This document shows positions 11,424-39,003 of a DNA stretch of 64,000 bases, piece after piece; the first letter of the stretch is position 1, and each line of letters opens with the position of its first letter. Location: the IMG/VR virus record IMGVR_UViG_3300008116_000027, positions 1 to 64,000 of that record, one strand, 5' to 3'. The notes under the pieces are model-generated. The model made no database searches. It worked only from the letters and a program-made list of their open reading frames with translations, and had not been told where the DNA came from. Origin of the DNA: a virus. The translations under genes were made by a program, and so were the position numbers.

Positions 11424-12137
11424 TTACTTAACCCAGATGGGGGCGTTTATATTTTTATCTAAAGCTTCTTGCAACATTTTTTGATTAAATTCAGTTTCCT
11501 GATATTGCTCTAATGTAGGAACATTTTCTTCAGATGCTACAATAAAGTTTGTATGGGCATATCTAGGACCTTTTGTTACAGCTTTTACTCCATGTCTATA
11601 TTTTTTGCTTGCACTGTGGATAACAAGGTCGCCCTTCTCTGGTTTGTATTCTACCTCTTGTTCTGGATAAAATAGCTCCCCGCCTTCAAAATCATTTATG
11701 TATACTACAAATCCGTACTGCACTATATGACAAGTATTGTGCGGATCGTATAAGTTTCCTTTTTCAATAGCATCAAAGTATCCAATTAAACTTCCTTCGT
11801 CGTGATCATCTGGATGTCCTGGACTATCCCAATGAACCTCTAAAGATTGACCTTCTATCATTTTAGAAACTCCATTAGATGGAAGTGGCTTATACTCTGG
11901 TCCAAAAAATTCTTCTGTTTTTTTCCACAATTCGTCTAATAAAGCATCTCCTTGAAAAACTTGATTAGGTGCTTTAATTTCAGAGTCATGATCCCATTTA
12001 TCTTTATTTAACCAATAATCATCGTGAAACCCATTTACAATTTCTGTATATTTATCTGCTTCTTCATTTGAAATAAAATTTTTATATACATATATCTCAT
12101 TGGCTAATTTAATTAAATTATTGTTATTTTGAAACAT
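11424..12137 (-). CDS. 2OG-Fe(II) oxygenase 1 (237 aa)
   Basis: The double-stranded beta-helix signature is complete: His102-x-Asp104 (VHWDS), strand YINDFEGGELFYP (146-158), the distal His182 (YRHG) and Arg192 ten residues later for 2-oxoglutarate. The family couples 2OG decarboxylation to hydroxylation of protein or small-molecule substrates; this substrate is unknown. It is closest by eye to oxygenases 3 and 4. TGCTATAAT ends 6 nt before ATG, so the mRNA is probably leaderless. Confidence 0.88.
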   Translation of the reverse strand: MFQNNNNLIKLANEIYVYKNFISNEEADKYTEIVNGFHDDYWLNKDKWDHDSEIKAPNQVFQGDALLDELWKKTEEFFGPEYKPLPSNGVSKMIEGQSLEVHWDSPGHPDDHDEGSLIGYFDAIEKGNLYDPHNTCHIVQYGFVVYINDFEGGELFYPEQEVEYKPEKGDLVIHSASKKYRHGVKAVTKGPRYAHTNFIVASEENVPTLEQYQETEFNQKMLQEALDKNINAPIWVK

Positions 12138-12458: not shown

Positions 12459-13238
12459 ATGAAAGTCTCTATGTTACATCCAGATATTTGGTATTTTGAA
12501 GATGCCATTCCAGAATCAAAAAAATTTTTATCTTTACTAGAAGACAATAAAAATATTACAAGCGTTATACCAGATTGGTCTACTTGGCTTGATTCTTTTG
12601 CTAGAGGCACAGATGAAATAATTATTAATAAACCGTTGGCCGCTGGAGAAGGCGGCGCTCCTATGGGTGTAGACAAGTTTGTTGACTGGGACATGTCAAT
12701 AAATGATTACGGCAGAATTTGGCCAAGAATAGTTCCCGACTCGGTAGTGCATAAAGAGGCTTATAAAACATTAAAGTTAATAGACATTCCATTTAAAAAA
12801 GTATTAGACTATTATTGGTCTAAAAATTCAGAGTTACCTGAACTTAAATATATTAGTAAAAATTATCTTATTAGAAAATACTCAACTGGAACATCTATGC
12901 CAATCCATGTAGATGCTAGCGGAAGAGCTGGTGCTACAGATGACGACAAAATATCTATGGATCTGGCTGCTTTGATTTACTTAAACGACGACTATACGGG
13001 CGGGGAATTAAATTTTGTAGATTTAGGCATAAAACTTAAACCATCTGCTGGAAGCATTGTAATTTTTGACGGCATAAAGCATCAGCATGAATCTACCCTA
13101 ATTACATCTGGTAACAAGATATACATTCCATTTTATATGCACACAAAATACGGTTTAATTTCCTGTTTTAGAGAACCTGTCGAAGCAGGCGGCAATCAGA
13201 CTTTTATTTCCAACCAAATACCCAGGTTGACAGAATAA
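12459..13238 (+). CDS. 2OG-Fe(II) oxygenase 2 (259 aa)
   Basis: The catalytic triad is His150-x-Asp152 (MPIHVDAS) and His210, with LIYLNDDYTGGELNF between. The 2OG-binding residue ten positions after His210 is Lys220, as in animal collagen prolyl 4-hydroxylase, rather than Arg. KYSTGTSM before the first His matches oxygenase 11 (KYSTGKSM), so the two are likely paralogues. Substrate unknown; transcription appears leaderless. Confidence 0.87.
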   Translation: MKVSMLHPDIWYFEDAIPESKKFLSLLEDNKNITSVIPDWSTWLDSFARGTDEIIINKPLAAGEGGAPMGVDKFVDWDMSINDYGRIWPRIVPDSVVHKEAYKTLKLIDIPFKKVLDYYWSKNSELPELKYISKNYLIRKYSTGTSMPIHVDASGRAGATDDDKISMDLAALIYLNDDYTGGELNFVDLGIKLKPSAGSIVIFDGIKHQHESTLITSGNKIYIPFYMHTKYGLISCFREPVEAGGNQTFISNQIPRLTE

Positions 13239-15575: not shown

Positions 15576-16385
15576 TTAAATTCCTTCTTTAGATCTTCTT
15601 TCATCCATTATTCTTACTTTTTCCTGGATAACATCAGCAAATTTTGGATTTACTTTTAATGGACCAGCCCACTCATTTAATTGTTGTTCAGTTGGATTTT
15701 TATACTGTCCTATTTGCTCATACCATTCTGGAGTTTTATAATTATAAAAAGTTCCAGGGTTATCTTCTGAATTTAATGCAAAATTAGAAAATACAAACCT
15801 AGTACCAGAAGTTGTTACTTTGGTTCCATGGTCATAAGGTTTACAAGCACCATGCAAAACAACGTCACCAGCCTCTGGCTGAATAACAAGGCAGGGCTCT
15901 TCTAATCTTTCTTTACTAATATCTGTGCCTACTTTAATTGTTCCATCTGGATTAATATTTGGATAGTATAATTCACCACCAGTAAATTCTCCAAAATACG
16001 CAGTCATTCCGTATTGTAAAGAGCAACATGCAGACCAAGTGTCTATTTCAAAAATTTCGTCTTCTCTACCCATTCCAGGACTATCGGCATGCACAAACAT
16101 ACCTTCATCGTGAGGTTCTGCAATCATTAAGCTTCTCATAGGGTGTATAACAATCTCTGGGTGTATTAATTCAGACATAAATTTCCAAACAAGAAAAGTG
16201 CTTGGCATAGGAGGACAAACTTTATCTTCATACCAGTTATTTGAACTCCATATATTTTCAGGCATAGTTCTTTGAAAATTTTCTAAATCTTTGTTAACTT
16301 CATTCATAATTTCTTGTGGAATTATGTTTTTGTAAATAAATATTCTATCTGATAGCTTAGTACATTTTGGATTGTCGTAAAACAT
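15576..16385 (-). CDS. 2OG-Fe(II) oxygenase 3 (269 aa)
   Basis: His99-x-Asp101 (FVHADSPG), the strand YFGEFTGGELYYPN, His186 (YDHG) and Arg196 form the iron and 2OG site. The opening MFYDNPKCTKLSDRIFIYKN is nearly the same as oxygenase 4, so the two arose by tandem duplication. The long insert between the Asp and the distal His (NPDGTIKVGTDISKERLEE) may shape substrate binding. Substrate unknown. Confidence 0.88.
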   Translation of the reverse strand: MFYDNPKCTKLSDRIFIYKNIIPQEIMNEVNKDLENFQRTMPENIWSSNNWYEDKVCPPMPSTFLVWKFMSELIHPEIVIHPMRSLMIAEPHDEGMFVHADSPGMGREDEIFEIDTWSACCSLQYGMTAYFGEFTGGELYYPNINPDGTIKVGTDISKERLEEPCLVIQPEAGDVVLHGACKPYDHGTKVTTSGTRFVFSNFALNSEDNPGTFYNYKTPEWYEQIGQYKNPTEQQLNEWAGPLKVNPKFADVIQEKVRIMDERRSKEGI

Positions 16386-16402: not shown

Positions 16403-17197
16403 TTATACATTATTTTTTGTTTTTTCTTCAATGATTTCTCTAAATTGTTCATTAACTATTAAAGGAGAGTTCCACTCATTTAATTGTTTATCTGTGGGAT
16501 CTTCATATTTACCTATTTGATCTTGCCACTCAGGGGTTTTGTAATTATAAAATGTACCAGGATTATCTTGAGCCATTAAAGCAAAACAAGAAAAGGCAAA
16601 CCTAATTCCATATTCTGTTTCTCTAGTTCCATGATCATATGGAGAGCATGCCCCATGTAAAACTATATCTCCTGGCTCAGGTTGAACTTCAAAACATGGC
16701 TCTTCTAATATTTGTTTAGTGACTTCCCAATGAGGTCCATTATTTTTTATACTACCATCTGGATTTAAATTGGGATAATATAATTTACCGCCTGTAAAAT
16801 TTCCAAAATATGAAATCATCCCATATTCTAATTCACAACAAGTTGTCCATTGATCAATTTCGCTTAACATATGGCAATTGCCTTTTCCAGGGCTATCTGA
16901 ATGCACAAACATTCCTTCATCGCCTGGTACAGATACCATAAAACTTCTTACTGGATGTATTACAACTTCTGGATAAATGAGTTCTGACATAAATTTCCAT
17001 AATGGAAAACTATTTTTATAAGGAGGAGTCATCTTATCCTTATACCATTCTCTTACACTCCAGTCGTTTTTTTCAACGCCTCTTTCATAAGTGGAAAGGT
17101 CTATGTTAACTAAATCCATTATTTCTTTTGGAATAATATTTTTATAGATATAGATTCTATCTGCTAATTTTGTGCATCTAGGGTCATCATAAAACAT
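16403..17197 (-). CDS. 2OG-Fe(II) oxygenase 4 (264 aa)
   Basis: His99-x-Asp101 (FVHSDSPG), YFGNFTGGKLYYPN, His189 (YDHG) and Arg199 are present. It is a clear tandem paralogue of oxygenase 3 (shared WKFMSELI and CGA/HGACxPYDHG segments). AAAGGA lies about 11 nt before ATG, and a TGATATAAT promoter lies at 17234-17242. Confidence 0.88.
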   Translation of the reverse strand: MFYDDPRCTKLADRIYIYKNIIPKEIMDLVNIDLSTYERGVEKNDWSVREWYKDKMTPPYKNSFPLWKFMSELIYPEVVIHPVRSFMVSVPGDEGMFVHSDSPGKGNCHMLSEIDQWTTCCELEYGMISYFGNFTGGKLYYPNLNPDGSIKNNGPHWEVTKQILEEPCFEVQPEPGDIVLHGACSPYDHGTRETEYGIRFAFSCFALMAQDNPGTFYNYKTPEWQDQIGKYEDPTDKQLNEWNSPLIVNEQFREIIEEKTKNNV

Positions 17198-26525: not shown

Positions 26526-29000
26526 ATGTCAACAGTAAGAATTCAAGTAAGACGAGGTACTGCATCAGAATGGACCTCAGTAAATCCTACACTAGCTGCA
26601 GGAGAACTAGGTGTTGAAACAGACACTAGAAAAATTAAAATTGGAACTGGAAGCACTGCTTGGACTAGCCTTTCTTACATAGCAGCAGACTCACCAGCAA
26701 TTACAGAAATTGCACAAGACGCAATTGATCAAGCTCTTTCTATGGGCTCAGGTCTTACAAAGTCTTATAACGATAACACAAATACAATTTCCCTTGGCAT
26801 CGACGACTCAATTGTCGCACTTAAATCTTATGTTGACAGCCAGGTAGGTGGGTTACAAAATACAGTAACTTCAGACTATGTATTATTAGCAGATGTTGGA
26901 AATGCAGGTGGACCTGCAAAATTAGATGCTGACGGAAACTTGCTTGTTCCAAAATCAAGCATTATTATAGAAGGATCATCAGCAGATGCTCATGAAACCA
27001 CACTAACAGTATCAAATCCAACATCAGATAGAACAATCACACTTCCAGACTCATCTGGTACAGTAGCACTAACATCAGACCTTGCACCATATGCAACAAC
27101 ACAAGCATTAAATTCCGTAGTATCTTCATTGAATATTCATCAAGCAGTAAATGTTGCAACAACAGAACCGTTAGTAGCAACTTATGCTGCTGGTTCCGCT
27201 GATAACGGCAATGGAACTGGAATTGGTGCAACATTAACAATGAACTCAAATGGCACTCTAACAATAGATGGCTTACAAGCAGAAAATGGATTTAGAATAT
27301 TAGTAAAAGATCAAGCAAACTTAGTTCATAATGGTATTTATGAAGTAACAATTGCAGGATCAGCTGGAGCACCAGCCGTTTTAACTAGATCTGCAGACTA
27401 CAATAACTCAGATGTAAACACACCTCTTGATGTTGCTAAAGGCGATGTCGTTTTTGTAACAGATGGAACAGAAAATGGATATAAACAATTTTCTCAAATA
27501 TACGCAGGAACTAACGCAGACGGCTCAGTAAAAATTGGATCTGAAAATATTGACTTTACTCAAATTTCAGGAGCAGCAACAATTATAGCTGGAAATGGTA
27601 TAACTAAATCAGGAAACACAATTAGTGTTGATGCTCAAGAATTTTTAGCAACATCTACCGCATCAAGTACATATTTAACTCAAGCAGATGCAGCAAATGA
27701 CTATTTGTCACAAACAGATGCTGGGGCTACTTATTTAACTCAAGCAGATGCAGCTTTAACATATTTAAATCAAACAGACGCAAGTACGACATACCTGTCA
27801 CAAGCAGATGCAGGTACAACATACTTGTCTCAAGCAGATGCTGCAACAGATTATTTTGCTGTTACAACAGATCAAATTGAAAATGCCAATATTAAAATTG
27901 GCGCAGGAATTGCAGCAGATAAAATATCAGGAAACGCTGTAACACAAGCAGATACAGGAACTGTAACCAATACAATGCTTGCAGGATCCATTGATAATAA
28001 CAAATTATCAAACTCTACAATTTCAGGCATATCGCTTGGATCTAATTTAGAAACATTAACAATTGGAACTGGTTTAAGTGGTACATCTTACAACGGTGGA
28101 TCAGCAGTAACAATTGCAATTGATTCAACAGTTGCTACAGAGTCTTACGCAGACACCGCAGCATCAAATGCTCAAGGAGCAGCAGAAGATTACGCTGACG
28201 GACTTGCAGCAAATTACGAAGTTGCAGGAGCTGTTTCAACACACTCATCTGATACAACAAACGTACACGGAATTACAGATACAGCCCAAATTGCTCTTCT
28301 AGATGCTGCTACACAGCAATTTACAGGAGACATGGGAATTACTGGAGACTTAATTGTTGACGGTGACGTAACTGTTAATGGCGGAAGCTTTACAGCAAGC
28401 GCTACATCTATAACAATTGAAGATAATCTAGTTCAGCTTGCTCATCAAAACGCAGCAAATACCGTAGACTTAGGTCTTGTTGTAGCGTACAATGACGGCG
28501 CAGCAAAACACTCTGGTATAGTAAGAGATGTTTCTGCTAATAAATGGAAACTATTTAAAGGCGTAACAACAGAGCCTGCTACAACAGTAGACTTTACAGA
28601 AGGATCACTTGATGACCTTGAGTTAAATGAAATTAAAACAGCTGGAGTAGTATTCTCAGACGGCACACAGACCAAAGAGGGTGTTCCTTCAAGAACTCCA
28701 ATTATTTCAAAGACTGCAGACTATACATTGTCTGCGCTAACCGAGAGAGATTCATTAATTGAAGTTGACTCTTCTTCAGCAGTAACAATTACAATTCCAA
28801 CCAACTCAGCAGTTGCTTATCCAATTGGAACAACTCTAGATATTCTTGGAGTTAACACAGGACTAATCACAATCGCAGGAGATACTGGTGTAACAGTAAA
28901 TGCTACCCCAGGATTAAAGTTACGTACACAATGGTCATCCGCAACATTACTCAAGAGAGCAGAAAATTCTTGGGTAGTTTACGGCGACTTGAAATCATAA
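26526..29000 (+). CDS. Main tail-fibre protein of Hint cassette A (824 aa)
   Basis: The N terminus (MSTVRIQVRRGTASEWTSVN, GELGVETDTRKIKIGTGSTA) is the widespread phage fibre hyaluronidase-type domain that anchors the trimer. It is followed by fibre repeats, a 10-residue repeat array (27666-27845), and SITIEDNLVQLAHQN/GLVVAYND segments. The last 100 residues, ending LKLRTQWSSATLLKRAENSW, are paralogous to the C terminus of the collagen-like protein at 36984. A Hint-domain gene follows after 12 nt. Confidence 0.85.
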   Translation: MSTVRIQVRRGTASEWTSVNPTLAAGELGVETDTRKIKIGTGSTAWTSLSYIAADSPAITEIAQDAIDQALSMGSGLTKSYNDNTNTISLGIDDSIVALKSYVDSQVGGLQNTVTSDYVLLADVGNAGGPAKLDADGNLLVPKSSIIIEGSSADAHETTLTVSNPTSDRTITLPDSSGTVALTSDLAPYATTQALNSVVSSLNIHQAVNVATTEPLVATYAAGSADNGNGTGIGATLTMNSNGTLTIDGLQAENGFRILVKDQANLVHNGIYEVTIAGSAGAPAVLTRSADYNNSDVNTPLDVAKGDVVFVTDGTENGYKQFSQIYAGTNADGSVKIGSENIDFTQISGAATIIAGNGITKSGNTISVDAQEFLATSTASSTYLTQADAANDYLSQTDAGATYLTQADAALTYLNQTDASTTYLSQADAGTTYLSQADAATDYFAVTTDQIENANIKIGAGIAADKISGNAVTQADTGTVTNTMLAGSIDNNKLSNSTISGISLGSNLETLTIGTGLSGTSYNGGSAVTIAIDSTVATESYADTAASNAQGAAEDYADGLAANYEVAGAVSTHSSDTTNVHGITDTAQIALLDAATQQFTGDMGITGDLIVDGDVTVNGGSFTASATSITIEDNLVQLAHQNAANTVDLGLVVAYNDGAAKHSGIVRDVSANKWKLFKGVTTEPATTVDFTEGSLDDLELNEIKTAGVVFSDGTQTKEGVPSRTPIISKTADYTLSALTERDSLIEVDSSSAVTITIPTNSAVAYPIGTTLDILGVNTGLITIAGDTGVTVNATPGLKLRTQWSSATLLKRAENSWVVYGDLKS
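27666..27845 (+). repeat. Six 30-bp coding repeats (YLTQADA-type)
   Basis: Six tandem 10-residue units of the form STYLTQADAA, with Ser/Asn/Gln and Thr/Ala variation, lie in the 824-aa fibre. They probably extend the fibre shaft. Confidence 0.8.
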
Positions 29001-29012
29001 GGAGAATTATAA

Positions 29013-30350
29013 ATGAGTAAGAGATCTGGTAGAAAATCCCAAGCAGCAAATGACTTTTTAGAGCCAAAACCTGTAGAAAATTTAGTAGCTACAGATGTAG
29101 GAACTTCTAGAGCATACAATGACGGAGCAGTAAATCTATCATGGGAGTTACCTGCAGGATCACCTCCAGCAACCTCTTACTCAATTACAACAACCCCAGC
29201 ATCAACAACACAAACTACATCTAATACCTCTTTTACATTTACTGGGCTATCATCAGATACAGCCTATACATTTTCAATAACTGGAAGCAATGCTGCAGGA
29301 ACTTCTGCTGCTACAACTTCTAGTTCTGTAACAGCAACTACGGTTCCTCAATCTCCACAATCAGTTTCAGCAGCTTCTCCAAACGCAAACGAAGATGTTG
29401 TTTCATGGTCAGCAGGTGCTTCTGGTGGTAAAACAATTACTAGTTATACCGTAATATCTTCAGATGGACCATCATACACAAATTCAACTTCACCAAAAAC
29501 TATTTCAGAAACAGCTGGAACTTCACAATCTTATACAGTTTATGCAATTAACGATAATGGAACATCAGTAGGAGCAACTACTGGTTCTGTTACTACAACA
29601 GCACCGTTCTTCCCACCGTTCTTCCCATATTTCCCACCGTTCTTCCCATATTTCCCACCGTTCTTCCCATTCTTCCCGTTCTTCCCACCATATTTCCCAC
29701 CATTCTTCCCATTCTTCCCGTTCTTCCCACCATATTTCCCACCGTTCTTCCCATATTTCCCACCGTTCTTCCCATTCTTCCCGTTCTTCCCACCGTTCTT
29801 CCCACCGTTCTTTCCACCAAGATTCGGTCCATATTTCCCAGCGTGTGTTGACGGAGATACTTTAATCTTAACTAGCGAAGGTCCAAAACCTGCTAGAGAG
29901 ATAAAAGTAGGAGATAAACTACTAACAGTTGATGCTTTAGGGTTAGCCGATCAACCTAACAAAACACCTCTTGAAATTAATGTTCAAGATTTGATGATAA
30001 GTAACATGGTACACACAGAAGTTACAAATGTTATAGTCTCAGACAAACAGGACAGAGTTTACTTCAATGGAAACAAAGAAGTTCAGTTTACAGAAACTCA
30101 TCCAATATTCGTAAAACGAAATAACGAATATCGTGTAGTCGAAGCAGGACTAGTACAACAAGGAGATGTTTTAATAAATATCTCAGTAGATAACTTATCT
30201 GAAACTTTAGATATGACCAAGGTAATATCAGAAGTTGAAGTGTCTAAGGTAGATAAAATAACTTTAGATTTAGCAAAAGATGTGTACACATTTAGCTGCG
30301 ATCCACATAATTGGTACTTCGCAGGAGATATATTAACACACAATAAGTAA
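29013..30350 (+). CDS. FN3 / Phe-Pro-repeat / Hint-domain protein A (445 aa)
   Basis: Two fibronectin-III-like domains (about 20-197) lead to a tract of Phe, Tyr and Pro only (198-276, units PFFPPFFP and PYFPPFFP). A complete mini-Hint (intein-like) domain follows: catalytic Cys278 (FPACVDGDT), block-B Thr360-x2-His363 (TETHPIF), and C-terminal His443-Asn444 before a single Lys445. There is no endonuclease insert. Hint domains make a thioester at the first Cys, so the repeat segment could be released or joined to a nucleophile. AGGAG lies 7 nt before ATG. Confidence 0.88.
   Translation: MSKRSGRKSQAANDFLEPKPVENLVATDVGTSRAYNDGAVNLSWELPAGSPPATSYSITTTPASTTQTTSNTSFTFTGLSSDTAYTFSITGSNAAGTSAATTSSSVTATTVPQSPQSVSAASPNANEDVVSWSAGASGGKTITSYTVISSDGPSYTNSTSPKTISETAGTSQSYTVYAINDNGTSVGATTGSVTTTAPFFPPFFPYFPPFFPYFPPFFPFFPFFPPYFPPFFPFFPFFPPYFPPFFPYFPPFFPFFPFFPPFFPPFFPPRFGPYFPACVDGDTLILTSEGPKPAREIKVGDKLLTVDALGLADQPNKTPLEINVQDLMISNMVHTEVTNVIVSDKQDRVYFNGNKEVQFTETHPIFVKRNNEYRVVEAGLVQQGDVLINISVDNLSETLDMTKVISEVEVSKVDKITLDLAKDVYTFSCDPHNWYFAGDILTHNK
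29603..29818 (+). repeat. Degenerate 12-bp repeats coding Phe/Tyr-Pro
   Basis: Units of the TTCTTCCCACCG / TATTTCCCACCG type repeat through the low-complexity tract of the Hint protein A. Confidence 0.85.
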
Positions 30351-30446: not shown

Positions 30447-31166
30447 ATGCAAGATATTTATGATATAAACGATAATCCATGGTTTACAAAAGATAGATCA
30501 GAATCAACTTCTTTTAGGGTAAATAGATCTTTTGGTAATATTAAAGTTTTAAATCCAGGTATTGGATTAAATATTTATGAATCAGCTATTCCAAGCAGTG
30601 TTTGCGAAACATCAATTAAAACATTAGAAGATAAGCTAACAAATGGCAACATGTATAAATGGTCAGAAGCACAAGTTACGACCTCAGACAAACCAGTAAA
30701 ATCTGCAAGAGATTGCGTAGATTTTAAATTTAAACCAGAAAATCTTGGAAAAAGAAATGAAAATAATGCAGAACTTCTAGATATGCATGAATCCATTTAT
30801 AATGTATTAAAAAAATGCGTAGATGATTATTGTCAATATTGGGGAATTAATGTTGTATATTATGAAGCTTTTAATTTTGTGAAATACACCAGCCCAGGAC
30901 AACATTTTAGAGTTCATGCTGATCATGGTCCACACTATAATTGTACAGTTTCAGCTGTAATATATTTAAATGATGATTACGAGGGCGGGGAGATAGCATT
31001 TCCAAGATTAGATAAATTAGTATATAAACCAAAACGTGGTGACGTAGTAATTTTTCCATCAAACTATATATACGAACATTCTTCAGAACCAATGATTTCT
31101 GGAGATAAATACTCTGTTGTAATTATGATGGATATTAACCTATTAGGACATAAGGAGAACAATTAA
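30447..31166 (+). CDS. 2OG-Fe(II) oxygenase 5 (239 aa)
   Basis: His157-x-Asp159 (RVHADHG), YLNDDYEGGEIAFP, His211 and Lys221 form the site; the 2OG anchor is Lys, as in collagen prolyl 4-hydroxylase. CVDFKFK, EAFNFVKY and HYNCTVSAVIYL are shared with oxygenase 6. AGAAAG lies 9 nt before ATG. The ATG of the next gene overlaps this stop. Substrate unknown. Confidence 0.88.
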   Translation: MQDIYDINDNPWFTKDRSESTSFRVNRSFGNIKVLNPGIGLNIYESAIPSSVCETSIKTLEDKLTNGNMYKWSEAQVTTSDKPVKSARDCVDFKFKPENLGKRNENNAELLDMHESIYNVLKKCVDDYCQYWGINVVYYEAFNFVKYTSPGQHFRVHADHGPHYNCTVSAVIYLNDDYEGGEIAFPRLDKLVYKPKRGDVVIFPSNYIYEHSSEPMISGDKYSVVIMMDINLLGHKENN

Positions 31167-31822
31167 TGAATAAACAAACTTGGTCAAGCGCAGAAGACTT
31201 AGGATCAGGAATTTGGGTATATAGAGATGTTTTAACAAAAGATTTAGATATTATTAATAGGCTAGAAACAAATTTAGATGGAAGCACTCCAGGTTGGACT
31301 TGGCAGCCAGCTTATGTTGGATATCAAGAAAGAATGCCAGAATATAGAGACTGCGTAGACTTTAAATTTAAAAAATCAGATATAGCAAATGATAAGTCTC
31401 CTATATCATTAAAAATGCAAGAATTGTGGCAAGACTGCTATGATAGGCAAGCACCAGCAGTAGAAGATTATTGTCAAAAACATAATATACATAAACTTCA
31501 ATATTGGGAAGCTTTTAATTTTATTAAATATGTTCCTGGACATCACTTCATGGAGCACCATGATCATGGATTTTCATATAATTGCACTGTATCTTTAGTT
31601 GGCTATATTAACGATGATTACGAGGGCGGAGAATTATATTTCAGATTACAAAATTTAAATATTAAACCAAAAGCTGGAGATTTATATATTTTCCCTTCAA
31701 CATATATGTATCCTCATCAAGCAAAAGTAGTTAAGTCTGGAACAAAATATTCATTAGTTACAATGTTAGATTATAGCGCAAAATTTCATACTCCAGCAAT
31801 GTACGAAGATACTGGTAATTAG
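31166..31822 (+). CDS. 2OG-Fe(II) oxygenase 6 (218 aa)
   Basis: His131-x-Asp133 (MEHHDHG), YINDDYEGGELYF, His184 and Lys194 are present. It is a tandem paralogue of oxygenase 5. The ATG overlaps the previous stop (AATGA), and the next gene's GTG overlaps this stop, so translation is coupled. Confidence 0.88.
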   Translation: MNKQTWSSAEDLGSGIWVYRDVLTKDLDIINRLETNLDGSTPGWTWQPAYVGYQERMPEYRDCVDFKFKKSDIANDKSPISLKMQELWQDCYDRQAPAVEDYCQKHNIHKLQYWEAFNFIKYVPGHHFMEHHDHGFSYNCTVSLVGYINDDYEGGELYFRLQNLNIKPKAGDLYIFPSTYMYPHQAKVVKSGTKYSLVTMLDYSAKFHTPAMYEDTGN

Positions 31823-32541
31823 TGTCTATATTAAAGGCATATAAAAGACATCCAAATTCTTTTATAATTGAACCTATTTCAGTAAAAAGACAATGGATGG
31901 ACGAAACTCCAGACGGTCATGCGTATAGGTGTTTTCCAGTAACAATGGCAAATACAATAGGTTGGACATTATCGTGTCCAGTGGACGTATCATTTATATG
32001 GGATGGGCAAATAGACACAACGCCAGATAGAGTTAAAATTTTATCTGGTCAAGAATATTGTTACACTGGAAGAGGCCAAGGTTCAGTAAGTTTTAATACA
32101 GGTCTTATTCTAAAATCAGAAAAACATATAAGTGTATTAAGTATTACTCCACAAAATTATTTTTATGAAGATTTTGAAGTAATGTCATCATTAATAAGTA
32201 CATCTTTTTTTAATGTTGATTTTCCATTAGCAATTAAAGTTAAAATTCCAAATAAAGAAATTATTATAAAAGCTGGCACTCCCATTGCTACAATTATTCC
32301 GATTTCTCTTACATCATTAAAAGATGAATCTATAGAAATAGAAAATTTTATAAAGCCAGAAGATTATGATGCTAAATTAAAAAGTTATGGAGATGCTGCT
32401 CAAGTAATAAATCAATCTGGACAGTGGACAGATTGGTATAGAGATGCTATTGATGAAACTGGCACATCTATTGGAGAGCATGAAACTAAAGCTTTAAAAT
32501 TAAAAGTAATAGATAATACAACAAAGGAAAATAACAATTAA
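31822..32541 (+). CDS. DUF6065-like protein 1 (239 aa)
   Basis: The GTG at 31822 starts MSILKAYKRHPNSFIIEPIS. The middle is beta-rich with WTLSCPVDVSFIWDGQID and ends in KAGTPIATIIPISL, a jelly-roll-like pattern I associate with DUF6065 phage proteins of unknown function. A paralogue follows. Its place between oxygenases suggests a role in the same pathway, perhaps substrate binding. Family name from memory. Confidence 0.65.
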   Translation: MSILKAYKRHPNSFIIEPISVKRQWMDETPDGHAYRCFPVTMANTIGWTLSCPVDVSFIWDGQIDTTPDRVKILSGQEYCYTGRGQGSVSFNTGLILKSEKHISVLSITPQNYFYEDFEVMSSLISTSFFNVDFPLAIKVKIPNKEIIIKAGTPIATIIPISLTSLKDESIEIENFIKPEDYDAKLKSYGDAAQVINQSGQWTDWYRDAIDETGTSIGEHETKALKLKVIDNTTKENNN

Positions 32542-33262
32542 TATAATTAAATTTGTATCAAATAGGCCTTGGTTAAATAAAGAAAGTATTTCTAAGCCAA
32601 CAGCAGCCATAAAAGAAATACCAGAATGGTTTAGAAAGGCAGATAGATTTGCAGTTAATCCAATTACTAAAGATTATTGGAAAGGGCCAGACGGAGGCAA
32701 AGTTCCTACATGGAAGGCTTGCCCAGCTATATTTGATATATTAGGCACTGGCTATGTTCTTAAAACACCATGCGACATTAAATTTTATTTAAAAAATAAT
32801 AAAATGTCTGTTGAAATAAAAGAAGATAGGTATAAAGATTTTTGTTCTCAAAGAGACCCTATGCCACAATTTGTTCATCCAAAAGGTTACCATAAAGAAC
32901 ATTTTGCATGGTACCCAGACTGGGCAATTGAGTTGCCAGAAGGATACAGTGCTTTATACACAACCCCATTTAATAGGTTTGATTTACCATTTTTAATGAC
33001 TACTGGAATTGTAGATAATGATAAAATTAATTTACCAGGAACAATGCCATTTTTTATAATTAGAGGATTTGAAGGAGTGCTACCAGCAGGAACTCCATAT
33101 GCTCAAATAATTCCATTTAAAAGAGAAGATTGGTCATCAGAAATATTTATAGAAAATCCAAATAATTTATACAAAAAGAATCAAAAAAATAGTGATAAAT
33201 ATAGAGTAAAAGATGGTGGAGTCTATAAAAATGAAGTTTGGTCTAAAAGAACATATGAATAG
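32537..33262 (+). CDS. DUF6065-like protein 2 (about 241 aa), probable ATT start
   Basis: An in-frame ATG exists only at 32804, but the frame is coding upstream (IIKFVSNRPWLNKE, IKEIPEWFRKADRF, GGKVPTWKACPAIF). The best start I see is ATT at 32537, 8 nt after AAAGGA and overlapping the upstream TAA as ATTAA. LPAGTPYAQIIPFKRE near the C terminus matches protein 1. If a caller insists on ATG, the first third is lost. Confidence 0.65.
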   Translation: MNIIKFVSNRPWLNKESISKPTAAIKEIPEWFRKADRFAVNPITKDYWKGPDGGKVPTWKACPAIFDILGTGYVLKTPCDIKFYLKNNKMSVEIKEDRYKDFCSQRDPMPQFVHPKGYHKEHFAWYPDWAIELPEGYSALYTTPFNRFDLPFLMTTGIVDNDKINLPGTMPFFIIRGFEGVLPAGTPYAQIIPFKREDWSSEIFIENPNNLYKKNQKNSDKYRVKDGGVYKNEVWSKRTYE

Positions 33263-33264
33263 AA

Positions 33265-33273
33265 TGATATAAT
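33265..33273 (+). promoter_or_regulatory. Extended -10 (TGATATAAT), leaderless start
   Basis: TATAAT ends 6 nt before the oxygenase 7 ATG at 33280; there is no Shine-Dalgarno. It may provide an internal promoter in the island. Confidence 0.65.
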
Positions 33274-33279
33274 AAATAT

Positions 33280-33951
33280 ATGGACAATAATTTAGCAAAT
33301 GGTGCAGCAAATTGGGATAACCGTGTTTCAATAACACCACCTGGATTTTTTGGCAACAGTCCAGAGCATATTCAGGCAAGAGAAAATTTTATGACTGAAG
33401 AAGAGAGATTATTCTTATTAGAATCAGCTAAATCAATTAATGAGTGGGATAGAACCGAAACTCATTATAATGATGACGGAATTGTAATTTATGACTCTTC
33501 TTATTGGGATAACCGTGTTGCATCAAGACCAATTCTTGATAAAATAAATCCAGAGATATCTGTTGTAATTGAAAAACTTGTTGAAAGATTAAAAGTTGAA
33601 GTTGATAATCATTTTAATGTTGATGCTAAACCTACAAGTCCAGCAATTGTTAGATGGATGAAAGGATATAGACAAGAGCCACATGCAGACAAACAGTTGC
33701 AAAATGGAGAGCCAAATGATTTTCCTTGGTATGATCTTGCTGGATTATTTTATTTAAATGATGACTACGAAGGCGGAGAACTTTATTTTATGCATCATGA
33801 TGTACAATTTAAACCAAAACCTGGAGCAGCATATTTCTTCCCAGGAGATGTAGGATACAGTCACGGAGTAAAAGAAATAACAAATGGAATTAGATATGTT
33901 ATTCCATTTTTTTGGACAATTTTAAAACATACTGGTGATAAGCAGCCATGA
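33280..33951 (+). CDS. 2OG-Fe(II) oxygenase 7 (223 aa)
   Basis: His135-x-Asp137 (EPHADKQ), FYLNDDYEGGELYF, His195 (YSHGV) and Arg205 form the active site; the terminal IPFFW is typical of prolyl-4-hydroxylase-like (P4Hc) domains. Likely leaderless. Next gene overlaps by 4 nt. Confidence 0.88.
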   Translation: MDNNLANGAANWDNRVSITPPGFFGNSPEHIQARENFMTEEERLFLLESAKSINEWDRTETHYNDDGIVIYDSSYWDNRVASRPILDKINPEISVVIEKLVERLKVEVDNHFNVDAKPTSPAIVRWMKGYRQEPHADKQLQNGEPNDFPWYDLAGLFYLNDDYEGGELYFMHHDVQFKPKPGAAYFFPGDVGYSHGVKEITNGIRYVIPFFWTILKHTGDKQP

Positions 33952-34742
33952 CAGTAGATTACACAGAAATATATCCTAAAATATATGTATACCACAATTC
34001 AATAAAAGATCCTAATTTTTTTTTAAAGCAGTCTTTAAATCAATATAAAATTGGTTGGAAGGATTGGTCATTTTTTGGAAGATATATAGGAATTGGCGGG
34101 AAAACAGCTAAATATAAAAAATTTCCAACCTGGGAAGAATTTAAAGAGTCTATAGATTTACAAGAAAATCAACAACTAAGTTTAGAGTATATTGATAAGT
34201 TTTATCACAACACTAAACATTATATAGATAATAATTTAATTACTTTAAACGAATGGGCATACGAGTCTTCCTCTTTATGTGAATATGATATAGCAAAAGG
34301 ACATGACGGAGAATTCTCTATGGCCTATCACTCAGACTTTATTGTGCCAGAAAAAAATTGGCCAGGATTAAAATTTGAAATATCAGTAACAACTTATCTT
34401 AATGATGATTACGATGACGGTGAGTTGTGTTTTGCTATAGATAACGATTTATTTTCTTATAAACCTAAAGCTGGAGATATGATTATTTTTCCATCAAGAC
34501 CACCATATTTTCATGGAGTAAGAAAACATAAAAATAAAAATAGATATATGATTAGAGGATTTTGGCTATCTTCTTACGAAGGAAGTCTTGAATGGCATGA
34601 GGGATTGCTTAAATACGGTAAAGAAGAGTGGGAAAAAATGCAAAGAATCGAACTAGAAAAATATACCATAGAAAATATACCTTCTCCATCAGAATACGCA
34701 TCTTCTTATTCTAGAGATAATGAAAGATTAAATATAAAATGA
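33948..34742 (+). CDS. 2OG-Fe(II) oxygenase 8 (264 aa)
   Basis: His128-x-Asp130 (AYHSDFI), TYLNDDYDDGELCF, His189 (FHGVRK) and Arg199 are present, with IRGFW after. It begins with EIYPKIYVYHNSIKDP and is a tandem paralogue of oxygenase 9. Translation is coupled on both sides. Confidence 0.88.
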   Translation: MTVDYTEIYPKIYVYHNSIKDPNFFLKQSLNQYKIGWKDWSFFGRYIGIGGKTAKYKKFPTWEEFKESIDLQENQQLSLEYIDKFYHNTKHYIDNNLITLNEWAYESSSLCEYDIAKGHDGEFSMAYHSDFIVPEKNWPGLKFEISVTTYLNDDYDDGELCFAIDNDLFSYKPKAGDMIIFPSRPPYFHGVRKHKNKNRYMIRGFWLSSYEGSLEWHEGLLKYGKEEWEKMQRIELEKYTIENIPSPSEYASSYSRDNERLNIK

Positions 34743-35548
34743 AAAATTTAGAATTTATAACAATATATCCTGGAGTAAACGTATACAGAAATGTTTTTCA
34801 GGATGTAAATGATTTTTTAGAAAAAGCAAAAAAATGTGAAAAATGGGAGCAATGGTATACATTTGGATCAATGCTTGCTCTTCAAGAAATGCCAATTAAA
34901 TTTGATTCATTTCCAAATAAAGATGAGTATATGACATCAAGAAAATGGGACGACGGTACAGAAAATTCAAAAATAAGAGGACAGCTAGCAGAAGAAGTAG
35001 CAGAAATATTTTATGATGTAACAAGTCATTATATAAAAATGCATCCAGAGCATTCATTACAAAATTGGATAAAAAACCCCGCTTCTGTTAATAGATACAA
35101 TGATGGATCAAGTATATCTGATAACTATTCAATGAACTACCATACAGACTATAATCAAGAAATTGAAGATTCAAGTGGTATTAAATTTGGAATTACTACA
35201 ACATTTTATTTAAATGATGACTATAAAGATGGAGAAATTTGTTTTAAAATTAATGATCATTTTATTTCTCATAAACCACAAAAGGGAGACGTAATAGTAT
35301 TTCCATCTAAGCCACCATACTATCATGCAGTTAGAAAATCTAGTGGAACAGATAGATATATGATTAGATCATTTTGGCAATTTGAGTATGAAGGATCAAA
35401 AGAATGGCTAGAAAATCAAGAAAAATACGGCAAAGATGTTTGGGCGTCTATGGAAGAAAAAAGAATTAGCAAAGAAAGATTTATGTATCAAATTGAAGGA
35501 GAGTCTATGCATAAATTTTTTGGAAAAGATAATGGAATTAAACTATGA
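34739..35548 (+). CDS. 2OG-Fe(II) oxygenase 9 (269 aa)
   Basis: His135-x-Asp137 (NYHTDYN), FYLNDDYKDGEICF, His196 (YHAVRK) and Arg206 (DRYMIRSFW) are all present. The match with oxygenase 8 extends through the N-terminal ITIYPGVNVYRNVFQD and the C-terminal EYEGSKEWLENQEKYG. The next ATG overlaps its stop (ATGA). Confidence 0.88.
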   Translation: MKNLEFITIYPGVNVYRNVFQDVNDFLEKAKKCEKWEQWYTFGSMLALQEMPIKFDSFPNKDEYMTSRKWDDGTENSKIRGQLAEEVAEIFYDVTSHYIKMHPEHSLQNWIKNPASVNRYNDGSSISDNYSMNYHTDYNQEIEDSSGIKFGITTTFYLNDDYKDGEICFKINDHFISHKPQKGDVIVFPSKPPYYHAVRKSSGTDRYMIRSFWQFEYEGSKEWLENQEKYGKDVWASMEEKRISKERFMYQIEGESMHKFFGKDNGIKL

Positions 35549-36387
35549 GACAATGTACTTGTGGAAGATCTAATGCGTATCCATATTGTGATGGAACTCA
35601 TAAAAAGAAAAAGGAGCCAATAATGAAAGACGGCATGATAGATGTTTTAGATAAAAGTAAATTTATTGTTTTGCAAGACGAAGAAGTTCCAGAAAATAAA
35701 GCTGGTGTACTTGGAGTCTATACCAATAAAATTGTAGAAATACCCAACTTTATTGACCCAGCAATAGTTCCCAAGATGATTCATTTTTTTGAAAATTGTA
35801 ATGTTGAGTGGGGAGATATTGCGTTTTACGGATCTTCTGGAAAAGGTATTTTAACTGACTCTGAAACAATGAAAAAATTTGGATTGCCAGATGAATTTTT
35901 TGATAAGTTAAAAAATAAATATCAGGAAACAGTAGAACTGGTATTCGGCAGAGAAGTTAGAGCAAATACTTCTCATGCACAAAAATGGGATGTTGGAGGA
36001 TTTGCAAGCCCGCATTCAGATAATTCAGATAATGAAGGAAAACCTAATGCTTTTGAAATAAATAAGTATGTTGGAATTTTATACTTAAACGATGACTATG
36101 AGGGTGGGGAATTATATTTTTGCGATAAAGATAATGAGATGAATCCATATCTATCATTTAAACCAAATGTATATTCTTATTATGTATTTCCTGGAGGGTA
36201 TGAAAATATTCACGGAGTATCAGAAATTACTAAAGGAACAAGATACACTATGGTATCATTTTGGGATTTTGCAGATTTAGTATATGACGATGCTACTTTA
36301 GAAAAATGGAAAGAAGAAGAAAAGCAAGTTAGAATTGAACAGGCTGCACAAAAAGAAGAATGGCTAAAAGGAAATAAATATGCCTAA
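35545..36387 (+). CDS. CDGSH iron-sulfur / 2OG-Fe(II) oxygenase fusion, oxygenase 10 (280 aa)
   Basis: The first 20 residues, MRQCTCGRSNAYPYCDGTHK, contain the exact CDGSH ligand set C-x-C-x2-S-x3-P-x-C-D-G-T-H (Cys4, Cys6, Cys15, His19) that binds a [2Fe-2S] cluster in mitoNEET-type proteins. A full oxygenase follows: His157-x-Asp159 (SPHSDNS), LYLNDDYEGGELYF, His223 (IHGVSE), Arg233 and SFWDF. Codon use and the lack of any stop argue that it is one protein. The cluster could donate electrons or iron to the active site; that is inference. Confidence 0.9.
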   Translation: MRQCTCGRSNAYPYCDGTHKKKKEPIMKDGMIDVLDKSKFIVLQDEEVPENKAGVLGVYTNKIVEIPNFIDPAIVPKMIHFFENCNVEWGDIAFYGSSGKGILTDSETMKKFGLPDEFFDKLKNKYQETVELVFGREVRANTSHAQKWDVGGFASPHSDNSDNEGKPNAFEINKYVGILYLNDDYEGGELYFCDKDNEMNPYLSFKPNVYSYYVFPGGYENIHGVSEITKGTRYTMVSFWDFADLVYDDATLEKWKEEEKQVRIEQAAQKEEWLKGNKYA

Positions 36388-36976
36388 TGTTCAAAGATTT
36401 GAAAAAATATCATATTATAAAAACGTTATAGACGATCCTAAATCACTAATCAATTTAATAGAGGAGTCAGATAAAAATTTAACGTCAGATACTAGTATCC
36501 CAAGTTGGCAAGAATGGAATGCTAGCGGAGATAGTCCTTATCAATTTGGTTATCAAAAAAGATTTAACAATAATGTTGAAGCTGATACTTCTCTAGAAAT
36601 TAAAAAAATAAATATGACATTAAAAAATGCTATTGTAGATGCATCTAATGATTATTCAAAAGAATATGGTATAAATATAGGAACATTAATGCCTTTATCT
36701 ATAAGTAAGTATTCCACTGGAAAATCTATGGGCCCTCATGTAGACGATTATAATAATGGAGATGACCCAAACATATCAGTAGTTTTATATTTAAATGATA
36801 ATTATGACGGTGGTGAGATTAATTTCCCAAATCAAAACATAACAATAAAACCAGAAGCAGGAAGCATTGTGATATTCCCATCTGTAGAGCCATATTACCA
36901 CGAATCCCTACCAGTTATTTCTGGTATTAAATATATGTCTCCTGGATTTTGGCGTAAAGTAGACAAGGTGGTATAA
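36380..36976 (+). CDS. 2OG-Fe(II) oxygenase 11 (198 aa)
   Basis: His120-x-Asp122 (GPHVDDY), LYLNDNYDGGEINFP, His174 (YYHES) and Lys184 form the site, with a Lys 2OG anchor. KYSTGKSM matches oxygenase 2. It overlaps oxygenase 10 by 8 nt and the collagen-like gene starts 7 nt after its stop, so the last oxygenase and the fibre are co-transcribed. Confidence 0.88.
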   Translation: MPNVQRFEKISYYKNVIDDPKSLINLIEESDKNLTSDTSIPSWQEWNASGDSPYQFGYQKRFNNNVEADTSLEIKKINMTLKNAIVDASNDYSKEYGINIGTLMPLSISKYSTGKSMGPHVDDYNNGDDPNISVVLYLNDNYDGGEINFPNQNITIKPEAGSIVIFPSVEPYYHESLPVISGIKYMSPGFWRKVDKVV

Positions 36977-36983
36977 TTTAAAA

Positions 36984-38087
36984 ATGGCCACTATTCCAAA
37001 TGATAAAAACTGGAGATTCCCAGACTACACAGATTCACCAGATATACCAAGAGATATTTCTTATTTAGCTGCAGATATTTCAGAGTATATAGATTCTCAC
37101 CCAGGTCCACAAGGTGAGCAGGGGGATACTGGACCAGCAGGACCAGCAAACGTTTTATCAGTCGGAACAGTAACAACTGGACCAGCAGAGTCTTCAGCCT
37201 CAGTTACAATTACTGGTACATCACCAGAGCAAACAATCAATTTTACAATTCCTCGTGGCGATACTGGAGCAACTGGTGCAACTGGCGCACAAGGTATTCA
37301 GGGAATACAGGGCATACAAGGAGAACAAGGAATTCAAGGTATACAAGGAGAAAAGGGCGACAAGGGCGATACTGGTGCAACTGGCGCAACAGGACCTCAA
37401 GGTATACAAGGCGAAAAAGGTGATGATGGTGACCAGGGCATACAAGGAGAACAAGGAACTGGCGTTAATATATTAGGTTCTTATGCTAATCTTACAGCAC
37501 TACAGACAGCACATCCAACTGGAAGCTCTGGAGATGCATATTTAATAGATAATGATTTATATGTTTGGTCTCAATCAACATCTTCATGGATAAACGTTGG
37601 AACAATAAGAGGCCCACAAGGTATTCAAGGAGAGCATGGCATACAGGGTCCAAAAGGCGATAAGGGAGATACTGGCGATACTGGAGCAACTGGTGCACAA
37701 GGACCGCAAGGCCCACAAGGCGAACCAGGATTAACAGGAGCAGACGGAGCAGACGGAGCAGACGGAGCAGACGGTCAAGACCTTACATCAGTATTTACAA
37801 TATCACAAAAATCTACATCTTACACATTAGTGGCATCAGATCTTGGAAAATTAATAGAAATGTCAAATGGCGGAGATCTAATTATACCAACAGATTCAGA
37901 AATATTTGATATCGGATCTACTATAGATATAATTCAAACTGGATCATCGCAAGTAACAATAGGCGGAGATACTGGTGTAACAGTAAACTCAACCCCAGGA
38001 TTAAAATTAAGAGCACAGTGGTCATCTGCAACATTAATTAAAAGAGGAAATAATCTTTGGGTTGCTGTAGGCGATTTGAGCGTCTAA
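36984..38087 (+). CDS. Collagen-like fibre protein of Hint cassette B (367 aa)
   Basis: Gly-x-y triplets fill residues 41-55, 92-160 and 210-266 (PRGDTGATGATGAQG, GEKGDKGDTG, GPKGDKGDTG, GADGADGADG). Five Lys residues occupy the y position before Gly (X-Lys-Gly), the consensus for collagen lysyl hydroxylation, while Pro is mostly in the x position. Residues 267-367 repeat the C-terminal module of the 26526 fibre, ending LKLRAQWSSATLIKRGNNLW. It should form a triple-helical fibre segment. Confidence 0.9.
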   Translation: MATIPNDKNWRFPDYTDSPDIPRDISYLAADISEYIDSHPGPQGEQGDTGPAGPANVLSVGTVTTGPAESSASVTITGTSPEQTINFTIPRGDTGATGATGAQGIQGIQGIQGEQGIQGIQGEKGDKGDTGATGATGPQGIQGEKGDDGDQGIQGEQGTGVNILGSYANLTALQTAHPTGSSGDAYLIDNDLYVWSQSTSSWINVGTIRGPQGIQGEHGIQGPKGDKGDTGDTGATGAQGPQGPQGEPGLTGADGADGADGADGQDLTSVFTISQKSTSYTLVASDLGKLIEMSNGGDLIIPTDSEIFDIGSTIDIIQTGSSQVTIGGDTGVTVNSTPGLKLRAQWSSATLIKRGNNLWVAVGDLSV

Positions 38088-38088
38088 A

Positions 38089-39003
38089 ATGCCAAAAAGA
38101 AATCGTGGTAGATCTGGTACAAGAAAAACAAATGTTCCAAATTATTTAGGACAAACTTCTACCGACACGCAAACATCTTTAACAAATCTTGGATTTGTTT
38201 ATATATATAATACAACCGATACTACAACAGAGTCTGATAATTTAAAAATATATTCACAAAGTATTTCTTCTGGTCAATTATATACTTTGGGATCACAAGT
38301 TTCAGTTGAATATTATGTGTATGTTGCGCCGTTCTTCCCACCGTTCTTTCCATTTTTCCCACCCTATTTCCCACCGTTCTTTCCATTTTTCCCACCCTAT
38401 TTCCCACCGTTCTTTCCATTTTTCCCACCCTATTTCCCACCGTTCTTTCCATTTTTCCCACCAAGATTTGCCCCAGTGGGTCCTTATTTCCCAGCATGCC
38501 TAGATGAAAACACTTTAGTGTTAACTAACGAAGGAATGAAGCCAGCTAAAGATATTAAGGTCGGGGATACATTATTAACAGTTGATGCATTAGGATTGTC
38601 TAATCAACCAAATGCAACCCCACTTGAAATTAATGTTAAAAATCTTAATATAACAAACTTAAGATCTACACAGGTTACAAATGTAATTGTTTCTGATAAA
38701 ACAGATAGAGTCTATTTTAATGAAAATACAGAAATTCAATTTACTGAAACTCACCCAATATTCGTAAAACGAAATAATGAATATCGTGTAGTAGAAGCGG
38801 GATCAGTTCAAGAGGGAGATATCATTATAATTATAAATATAAGTCTCTTAAAAGAACAAATAAATATATCAGAAGTAATAACTGAAACTGTAATAAATAA
38901 AGTTGAAAAGAAAACTTTAGATGTTGCAAAAAATGTATATACGTTTAGCTGTGATCCATATAATTGGTATTTTGCTGGAAATATATTAACTCACAATAAG
39001 TAG
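38089..39003 (+). CDS. PASTA-like / Phe-Pro-repeat / Hint-domain protein B (304 aa)
   Basis: A PASTA-like domain (residues 16-78; VPNYLGQTSTDTQTSLTNLG, then LGSQVSVEYYV) replaces the FN3 pair of protein A and may bind peptidoglycan. The Phe/Tyr-Pro tract (81-126) and the mini-Hint domain follow: Cys137 (FPACLDENT), Thr219-x2-His222 (TETHPIF), and His302-Asn303 before Lys304. The Hint part is closely paralogous to protein A. It starts 1 nt after the collagen-like gene's stop. Confidence 0.88.
   Translation: MPKRNRGRSGTRKTNVPNYLGQTSTDTQTSLTNLGFVYIYNTTDTTTESDNLKIYSQSISSGQLYTLGSQVSVEYYVYVAPFFPPFFPFFPPYFPPFFPFFPPYFPPFFPFFPPYFPPFFPFFPPRFAPVGPYFPACLDENTLVLTNEGMKPAKDIKVGDTLLTVDALGLSNQPNATPLEINVKNLNITNLRSTQVTNVIVSDKTDRVYFNENTEIQFTETHPIFVKRNNEYRVVEAGSVQEGDIIIIINISLLKEQINISEVITETVINKVEKKTLDVAKNVYTFSCDPYNWYFAGNILTHNK
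38329..38461 (+). repeat. 33-bp coding repeat array (Phe-Pro tract)
   Basis: A 33-bp unit (coding PFFPFFPPYFP) repeats about three and a half times with almost no divergence, unlike the looser array at 29603-29818. This indicates recent expansion by slippage or recombination. Confidence 0.85.

Follow-up and report, generated by a model that had tools for sequence, protein, structure and literature searches.

A minimal CDGSH iron-sulfur motif of 20 residues is fused to the N-terminus of a 2OG-Fe(II) oxygenase in the viral DNA analyzed here, and CDGSH peptides accompany Fe(II)/2OG oxygenases in unrelated phages, either fused at one of the two ends or encoded adjacently. It is tentatively proposed, with a confidence somewhat below even, that residues 1-20 constitute a minimal CDGSH site serving phage Fe(II)/2OG oxygenases as a redox partner, in cis or in trans. 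The analyzed DNA, designated as the window, is a stretch of 64,000 nucleotides from a 76,885-base IMG/VR virus record. Its portal protein and those of Streptomyces phages share 56-59% identity, and thus the virus is actinophage-like. The gene of interest and its parts are as follows:

35545-36387, + strand: fusion of a mini CDGSH tag, a linker and a 2OG-Fe(II) oxygenase, 280 aa, ATG start (profiles, invariant residues, pN/pS)
35545-35604, + strand: mini CDGSH tag, residues 1-20 (PF09360, sequence matches to solved CISD proteins, pN/pS)
35554, 35560, 35587 and 35599, + strand: tag ligands C4, C6, C15 and H19
35605-35622, + strand: Lys-rich linker, residues 21-26, under relaxed selection (pN/pS)
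35611-35625, + strand: Shine-Dalgarno sequence AAGGAG (35611-35616) and the Met27 ATG (35623-35625) (duplex energy)
35623-36384, + strand: 2OG-Fe(II) oxygenase body with H157-x-D159, H223 and R233 (PF13640, alignment, AF2)

Residues 4-19 are CTCGRSNAYPYCDGTH, which fits exactly the CDGSH pattern C-X-C-X2-(S/T)-X3-P-X-C-D-G-(S/A/T)-H, and the ligand set that the original prediction placed within the first 20 residues is thereby confirmed. PF09360 scored 33.7 bits in the genome scan and 29.0 bits with hmmscan (cut-off 29.5), and the tag sequence matches the solved CDGSH proteins 3tbn, 6avj and mitoNEET 2qh7. The SEC-C zinc motif, considered as another candidate, was rejected, because the fourth-ligand spacing CxxxH and the S, P and D residues agree with CDGSH. 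The profile match begins at position 29 or 32 and ends at position 48 of 48; with 3 residues before the motif, the beta cap (the beta-sandwich dimer module) is absent from the tag. No strands were predicted for residues 1-26 in the AF2 model, where pLDDT is about 50, and at this value the tag is not placeable relative to the active site. The tag is therefore not a canonical NEET protein, as it spans 20 of 48 profile positions and has no beta cap; what had been predicted as a CDGSH domain has an intact ligand motif but is incomplete as a domain. With three Cys and one His, the tag would bind a [2Fe-2S] cluster, and it is chiefly the missing beta cap that calls for caution on the cluster itself.

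The motif is followed by a complete oxygenase, as predicted. PF13640 matches residues 148-239 with 37.3 bits, and H157, D159, H223 and R233, which represent the iron triad and the distal Arg for 2OG, are invariant across 34 relatives. The body matches phrog_61 and, among solved proteins, the sequences of prolyl 3- and 4-hydroxylases. The AF2 model (pLDDT 73) has a fold resembling P3H1, PHD2, P4H, OGFOD1, vCPH, and mimivirus lysyl hydroxylase; the best Foldseek match was P3H1 with the E-value 6e-7, followed by PHD2 and P4H.

Selection was analyzed with 10 distinct fused genes, which were fetched by whole-protein search and not by motif. The pN/pS was 0.126 for tag residues 1-20, 0.132 for the body, and 0.755 for linker residues 21-26, and the synonymous sites of the tag are well diverged (pS 0.63). 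Since the pN/pS of the tag is close to that of the enzyme body, the tag is constrained as a protein and is therefore translated. This rejects the possibility, considered along with the original prediction, that the true protein starts at Met27 and the motif is an untranslated artefact of a wrong start. Met27 nevertheless has the better Shine-Dalgarno sequence. The duplex energy is -8.1 kcal/mol for Met27 versus -3.3 kcal/mol for Met1, the medians in the 10 fused genes are -6.65 versus -3.1 kcal/mol (the median of the window genes is -7.1), and the Shine-Dalgarno-like run before Met27 is kept in 10 of 10. The stronger signal at Met27 combined with the selection on the tag makes two products likely; Met27 is probably a second, internal start from which an untagged form is made as well. 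As the Met1 ATG overlaps the stop codon of the previous gene in ATGA, the long form probably needs coupled translation.

The 77-kb record encodes about a dozen 2OG-Fe(II) oxygenases, 7 of them inside 6.5 kb (30447-36976). The oxygenases other than the fusion and the adjoining tail protein are as follows:

30447-31822, + strand: first two 2OG oxygenases of the cluster, 30447-31166 and 31166-31822 (PF13640)
33280-33951, + strand: 2OG oxygenase in the operon of the fusion (PF13640)
33948-34742, + strand: 2OG oxygenase in the operon of the fusion (PF13640)
34739-35548, + strand: 2OG oxygenase directly upstream of the fusion, with the ATGA overlap (profile match)
36380-36976, + strand: 2OG oxygenase directly downstream of the fusion (PF13640, 51.4 bits)
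11424-12137, 12459-13238, 15576-16385, 16403-17197 and record position 67790: other 2OG-Fe(II) oxygenases of the record
36984-38087, + strand: collagen-like (Gly-X-Y) tail protein adjoining the cluster (PF01391, 76.9 bits)

The collagen-like protein contains uninterrupted runs of 23 and 19 Gly-X-Y triplets, and it is a possible substrate of the cluster oxygenases in this virus. A general link of CDGSH and oxygenases to collagen-like tails was rejected, as in the DNA searched it was seen in 2 of 32 dereplicated CDGSH+2OG loci among the matches listed. The 26526-29000 and 36984-38087 products are differing tail-fibre-like proteins with a common C-terminal stretch, VTVN(A/S)TPGLKLR(A/T)QWSSATL(L/I)KR. 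The oxygenase cluster is flanked by two tail-region proteins (29013-30350 and 38089-39003) with PFFPFFPPYF repeats and an intein/Hint-like C-terminal domain (PF14890, below cut-off) ending in ...THNK; they look like self-processing structural proteins. Two phrog_7084 proteins, at 31822-32541 (DUF6065) and 32804-33262, are encoded within the cluster.

Among 80 relatives fetched by whole-protein search, about 20 keep the fusion, and thus the fusion is not a chance event. In these relatives, the tag is fused to the homologue of the 35545-36387 oxygenase. In others it is a separate ORF of ~40 codons with an ATGA overlap with the oxygenase start (L028, L041), or a separate ORF 1.2-1.7 kb upstream (L052-L054, L057, L058, L061-L064, L068). 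It was also found on the upstream paralogue, the homologue of 34739-35548 (L026, L027, L031, and others), on another paralogue (L022-L025), and on a further one (L073), while some of the 80 have no tag. The position of the tag is free within the oxygenase operon. On the tree of oxygenase bodies these states require at least 7 changes, some of which may be explained by recombination of neighboring genes. In whole-record searches 15 records were positive, 14 of them with exactly one CDGSH and one with three, and 14 other records had none. Several close relatives have an oxygenase cluster but no CDGSH in the record DNA searched, so that CDGSH is probably not essential.

The clusters contain 5-9 same-strand oxygenases per locus. 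With one tag per 5-9 oxygenases and an optional fusion, a shared partner fits better than a loader of a single enzyme. The original prediction, in which the cluster maintains or loads the iron of the fused enzyme, is thus retained in part: the fusion is real and selected, and the association of CDGSH with oxygenases recurs in unrelated phages, whereas a dedicated role for one enzyme fits less well with tags that are separate or carried by paralogues. NEET clusters are labile, and a CDGSH site could donate Fe to apo-oxygenases during an expression burst. The genomic association would be equally expected for such an iron or cluster donor, and one tag per several oxygenases suits a loader acting in trans. 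This explanation is considered unlikely, as a single Fe-S peptide carries little iron and 2OG oxygenases normally take Fe(II) from the cell pool without a chaperone. The mitoNEET cluster is redox active and reversibly binds NO when reduced (PMC9490426), which would be compatible with a sensor of redox state, O2 or NO, whose cluster toggles oxygenase activity with the redox state of the cell. For a sensor, a tag that is often a separate gene and is outnumbered by the oxygenases is not expected, and a regulatory domain was not seen; the sensor is thus quite improbable.

The association was then screened across IMG/VR with a CDGSH DNA pattern, and at least 120 stretches matched. The codon-reversed pattern had no match in the IMG/VR viral scan; it therefore serves as a chance control only, and glutaredoxin loci were taken as the background. 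With an oxygenase HMM trained on the enzymes of the window, 32 of 58 dereplicated CDGSH sites among the matches listed were either part of a 2OG oxygenase fusion or located no more than 2 kb from such an oxygenase, versus 0 of 49 glutaredoxin sites (Fisher 1e-11). With Pfam's own PF13640 profile, and after exclusion of 8 close relatives of the window, oxygenases were found in 29 of 50 whole CDGSH records among the matches listed versus 3 of 49 glutaredoxin records (1e-8). The glutaredoxin set comes from other habitats and somewhat shorter DNA, and therefore random positions within the same CDGSH loci were also compared. Twenty CDGSH sites are within 300 bases of an oxygenase, versus 10.8 expected (p 0.0002). 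Outside the clade of the window, the numbers are 9 versus 5.0 within 300 bases (p 0.03) and 14 versus 8.6 within 1 kb (p 0.009).

A search for other CDGSH-2OG fusions, which the original prediction had suggested, revealed them at both termini and on several oxygenase types. Outside the window clade, there are two types of N-terminal tag fusions (L090, L123) and one C-terminal type (L091, L094, L108, L122). The body of the C-terminal type aligns with the untagged window ORFs 15576 and 16403; its HxD, H and R residues are kept and the fold is supported. An N-terminal tag is also present on a JmjC_2 protein (L100, L193; PF08007, 30.6 and 29.6 bits, cut-off 22). In a FastTree phylogeny of 108 representatives, 7 tagged oxygenase types need 7 changes, at least 4 of them by well-supported branches.

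It is conceivable that mini-CDGSH genes and oxygenases simply share a variable cargo region and that the fusions are read-through accidents. Oxygenases are dense in this region, recombination can bring neighbors together, and for about half of the phage CDGSH sites among the matches listed the vicinity contains no 2OG oxygenase. Selection acting on the fused tag, the repeated independent fusions on the oxygenase tree, the tag on the unrelated JmjC_2 protein, and the proximity exceeding that of random positions within loci all contradict such a coincidence, which is very improbable. The free operon position and the attachment to either the N- or the C-terminus are typical of docking tags, and the tag could be a structural metal finger whose Zn or Fe site anchors oxygenases on each other, on the nascent chain or on a substrate in the tail fibre. 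The very short tag with no beta cap and the Lys-rich, fast-evolving linker would suit this role. A finger has a low probability, since the CDGSH-specific Ser, Pro and Asp are conserved besides the ligands, in one comparison partly by construction but not so in the fused-gene alignment, and [2Fe-2S] CISDs are the solved proteins that the tag matches best.

Three further observations concern phage CDGSH genes. At L153:9868-10741, a tandem of two near-duplicate, longer CDGSH genes, spaced by 445 bases, lies next to a 2OG oxygenase, and residues precede their motifs as in canonical domains. Other small CDGSH proteins (L086, L089, L128, L135, L136, and others) come from phages whose searched DNA lacks a 2OG oxygenase. 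A 112-kb phage record (G057, the contig of L091) has 3 CDGSH sites and 10 2OG oxygenases.

Bacteria are as a rule devoid of ascorbate. Ascorbate regenerates PHD2 from the inactive Fe(III).2OG complexes into which it lapses (PMC11525979), and the [2Fe-2S] cluster of mitoNEET relays electrons that it receives from FMNH2 (PMC9490426). In the redox-partner reading, a labile [2Fe-2S] cluster would be held by the three Cys and one His of the tag, and docking on the partner may complete it. Electrons would flow from host flavin or thiol reductants through the tag cluster to the active-site iron, and Fe(III) or uncoupled oxygenase states would be returned to Fe(II), a task that ascorbate performs in animal prolyl hydroxylases. 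In addition to its own attached enzyme, a single tag would act in trans on several oxygenases of the cluster, and the Met27 start would supply untagged copies of that attached enzyme. With ascorbate as a rule missing from bacteria, and with 2OG hydroxylases of such a fold able to slip into inactive Fe(III) states, the mini-CDGSH would be a natural re-reducer of the iron. Reduction, iron delivery and sensing all predict the same genomics. With more reserve, it is suggested that the portable CDGSH [2Fe-2S] peptide of ~20 residues evolved in phages as a dedicated redox partner substituting for ascorbate, and that it may be the smallest NEET-type module known.

Aquatic phages commonly carry 2OG-Fe(II) oxygenases as "auxiliary" genes, about whose role little is known; the attached peptide offers a handle on them. 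The tag predicts that phage 2OG oxygenases are redox-limited in the host and names a candidate partner. For protein design it may serve as a mini Fe-S module, and, if the reading is true, the NEET family would extend to a truncated form functioning without the dimer cap. Both parts belong to known families; what is new, as far as tested, is the truncated and portable form and its repeated pairing with oxygenases. In agreement with the original prediction, which knew of no such fusion in the literature, no report of CDGSH combined with a 2OG oxygenase, or of such phage CDGSH proteins, was found in the openly accessible papers searched.

The phage form differs from its cellular counterparts. In a sample of 137 bacterial CDGSH sites, K or Q usually precedes Pro and a median of 40 residues precedes the motif, whereas Y or F precedes Pro in 56 of 66 phage sites near oxygenases among the matches listed. 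The phage-trained HMM detected no 2OG oxygenase near any of the 137 sampled sites. The tag-specific pattern had no match in 84,980 species genomes, where the general CDGSH pattern does match, and tblastn against 50,697 annotated phage records revealed no tagged relative; none was found in cultured phages.

The CISD/NEET proteins (mitoNEET, CISD3/MiNT, MmCISD 3tbn; PF09360) have the same C-x-C-x2-S-x3-P-x-C-D-G-T-H pattern as the tag, and its R-S-x-x-[FY]-P-[FY]-C-D-G context is similar to that of mitoNEET. The tag differs in its length of 20 residues, the absence of the beta-cap/dimer module, its location on or beside oxygenases, and the motif G, which is often N or E in relatives. Seven CISD types were described (Lin et al., PMC3174974), and the tag fits none of them. 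The type 5 and type 7 fusions, with a glutamate synthase FMN-binding domain and DUF1271, respectively (PMC3174974), likewise join CDGSH to a redox or metal partner, but they are cellular, contain full CISD domains, and have partners other than a 2OG oxygenase. Term searches of PMC3174974 and PMC5859297 found no mention of oxygenase, phage or virus. The match to phage 2OG-Fe(II) oxygenases (phrog_61, PF13640) covers only the oxygenase part of the fusion. P3H1, bacterial P4H, PBCV-1 vCPH and PHD2 have the fold and triad in common with the body, at 8-20% identity, and are themselves without a known Fe-S partner; the animal collagen prolyl hydroxylases and PHD2 stay in the Fe(II) state only with the help of a reductant, for example ascorbate. 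The Rieske- or ferredoxin-fed oxygenases have unrelated folds, and 2OG enzymes, unlike them, do not need an electron donor in each turnover. They are nevertheless a works-like analogy to the tag, in that a [2Fe-2S] module supplies a non-haem iron oxygenase.
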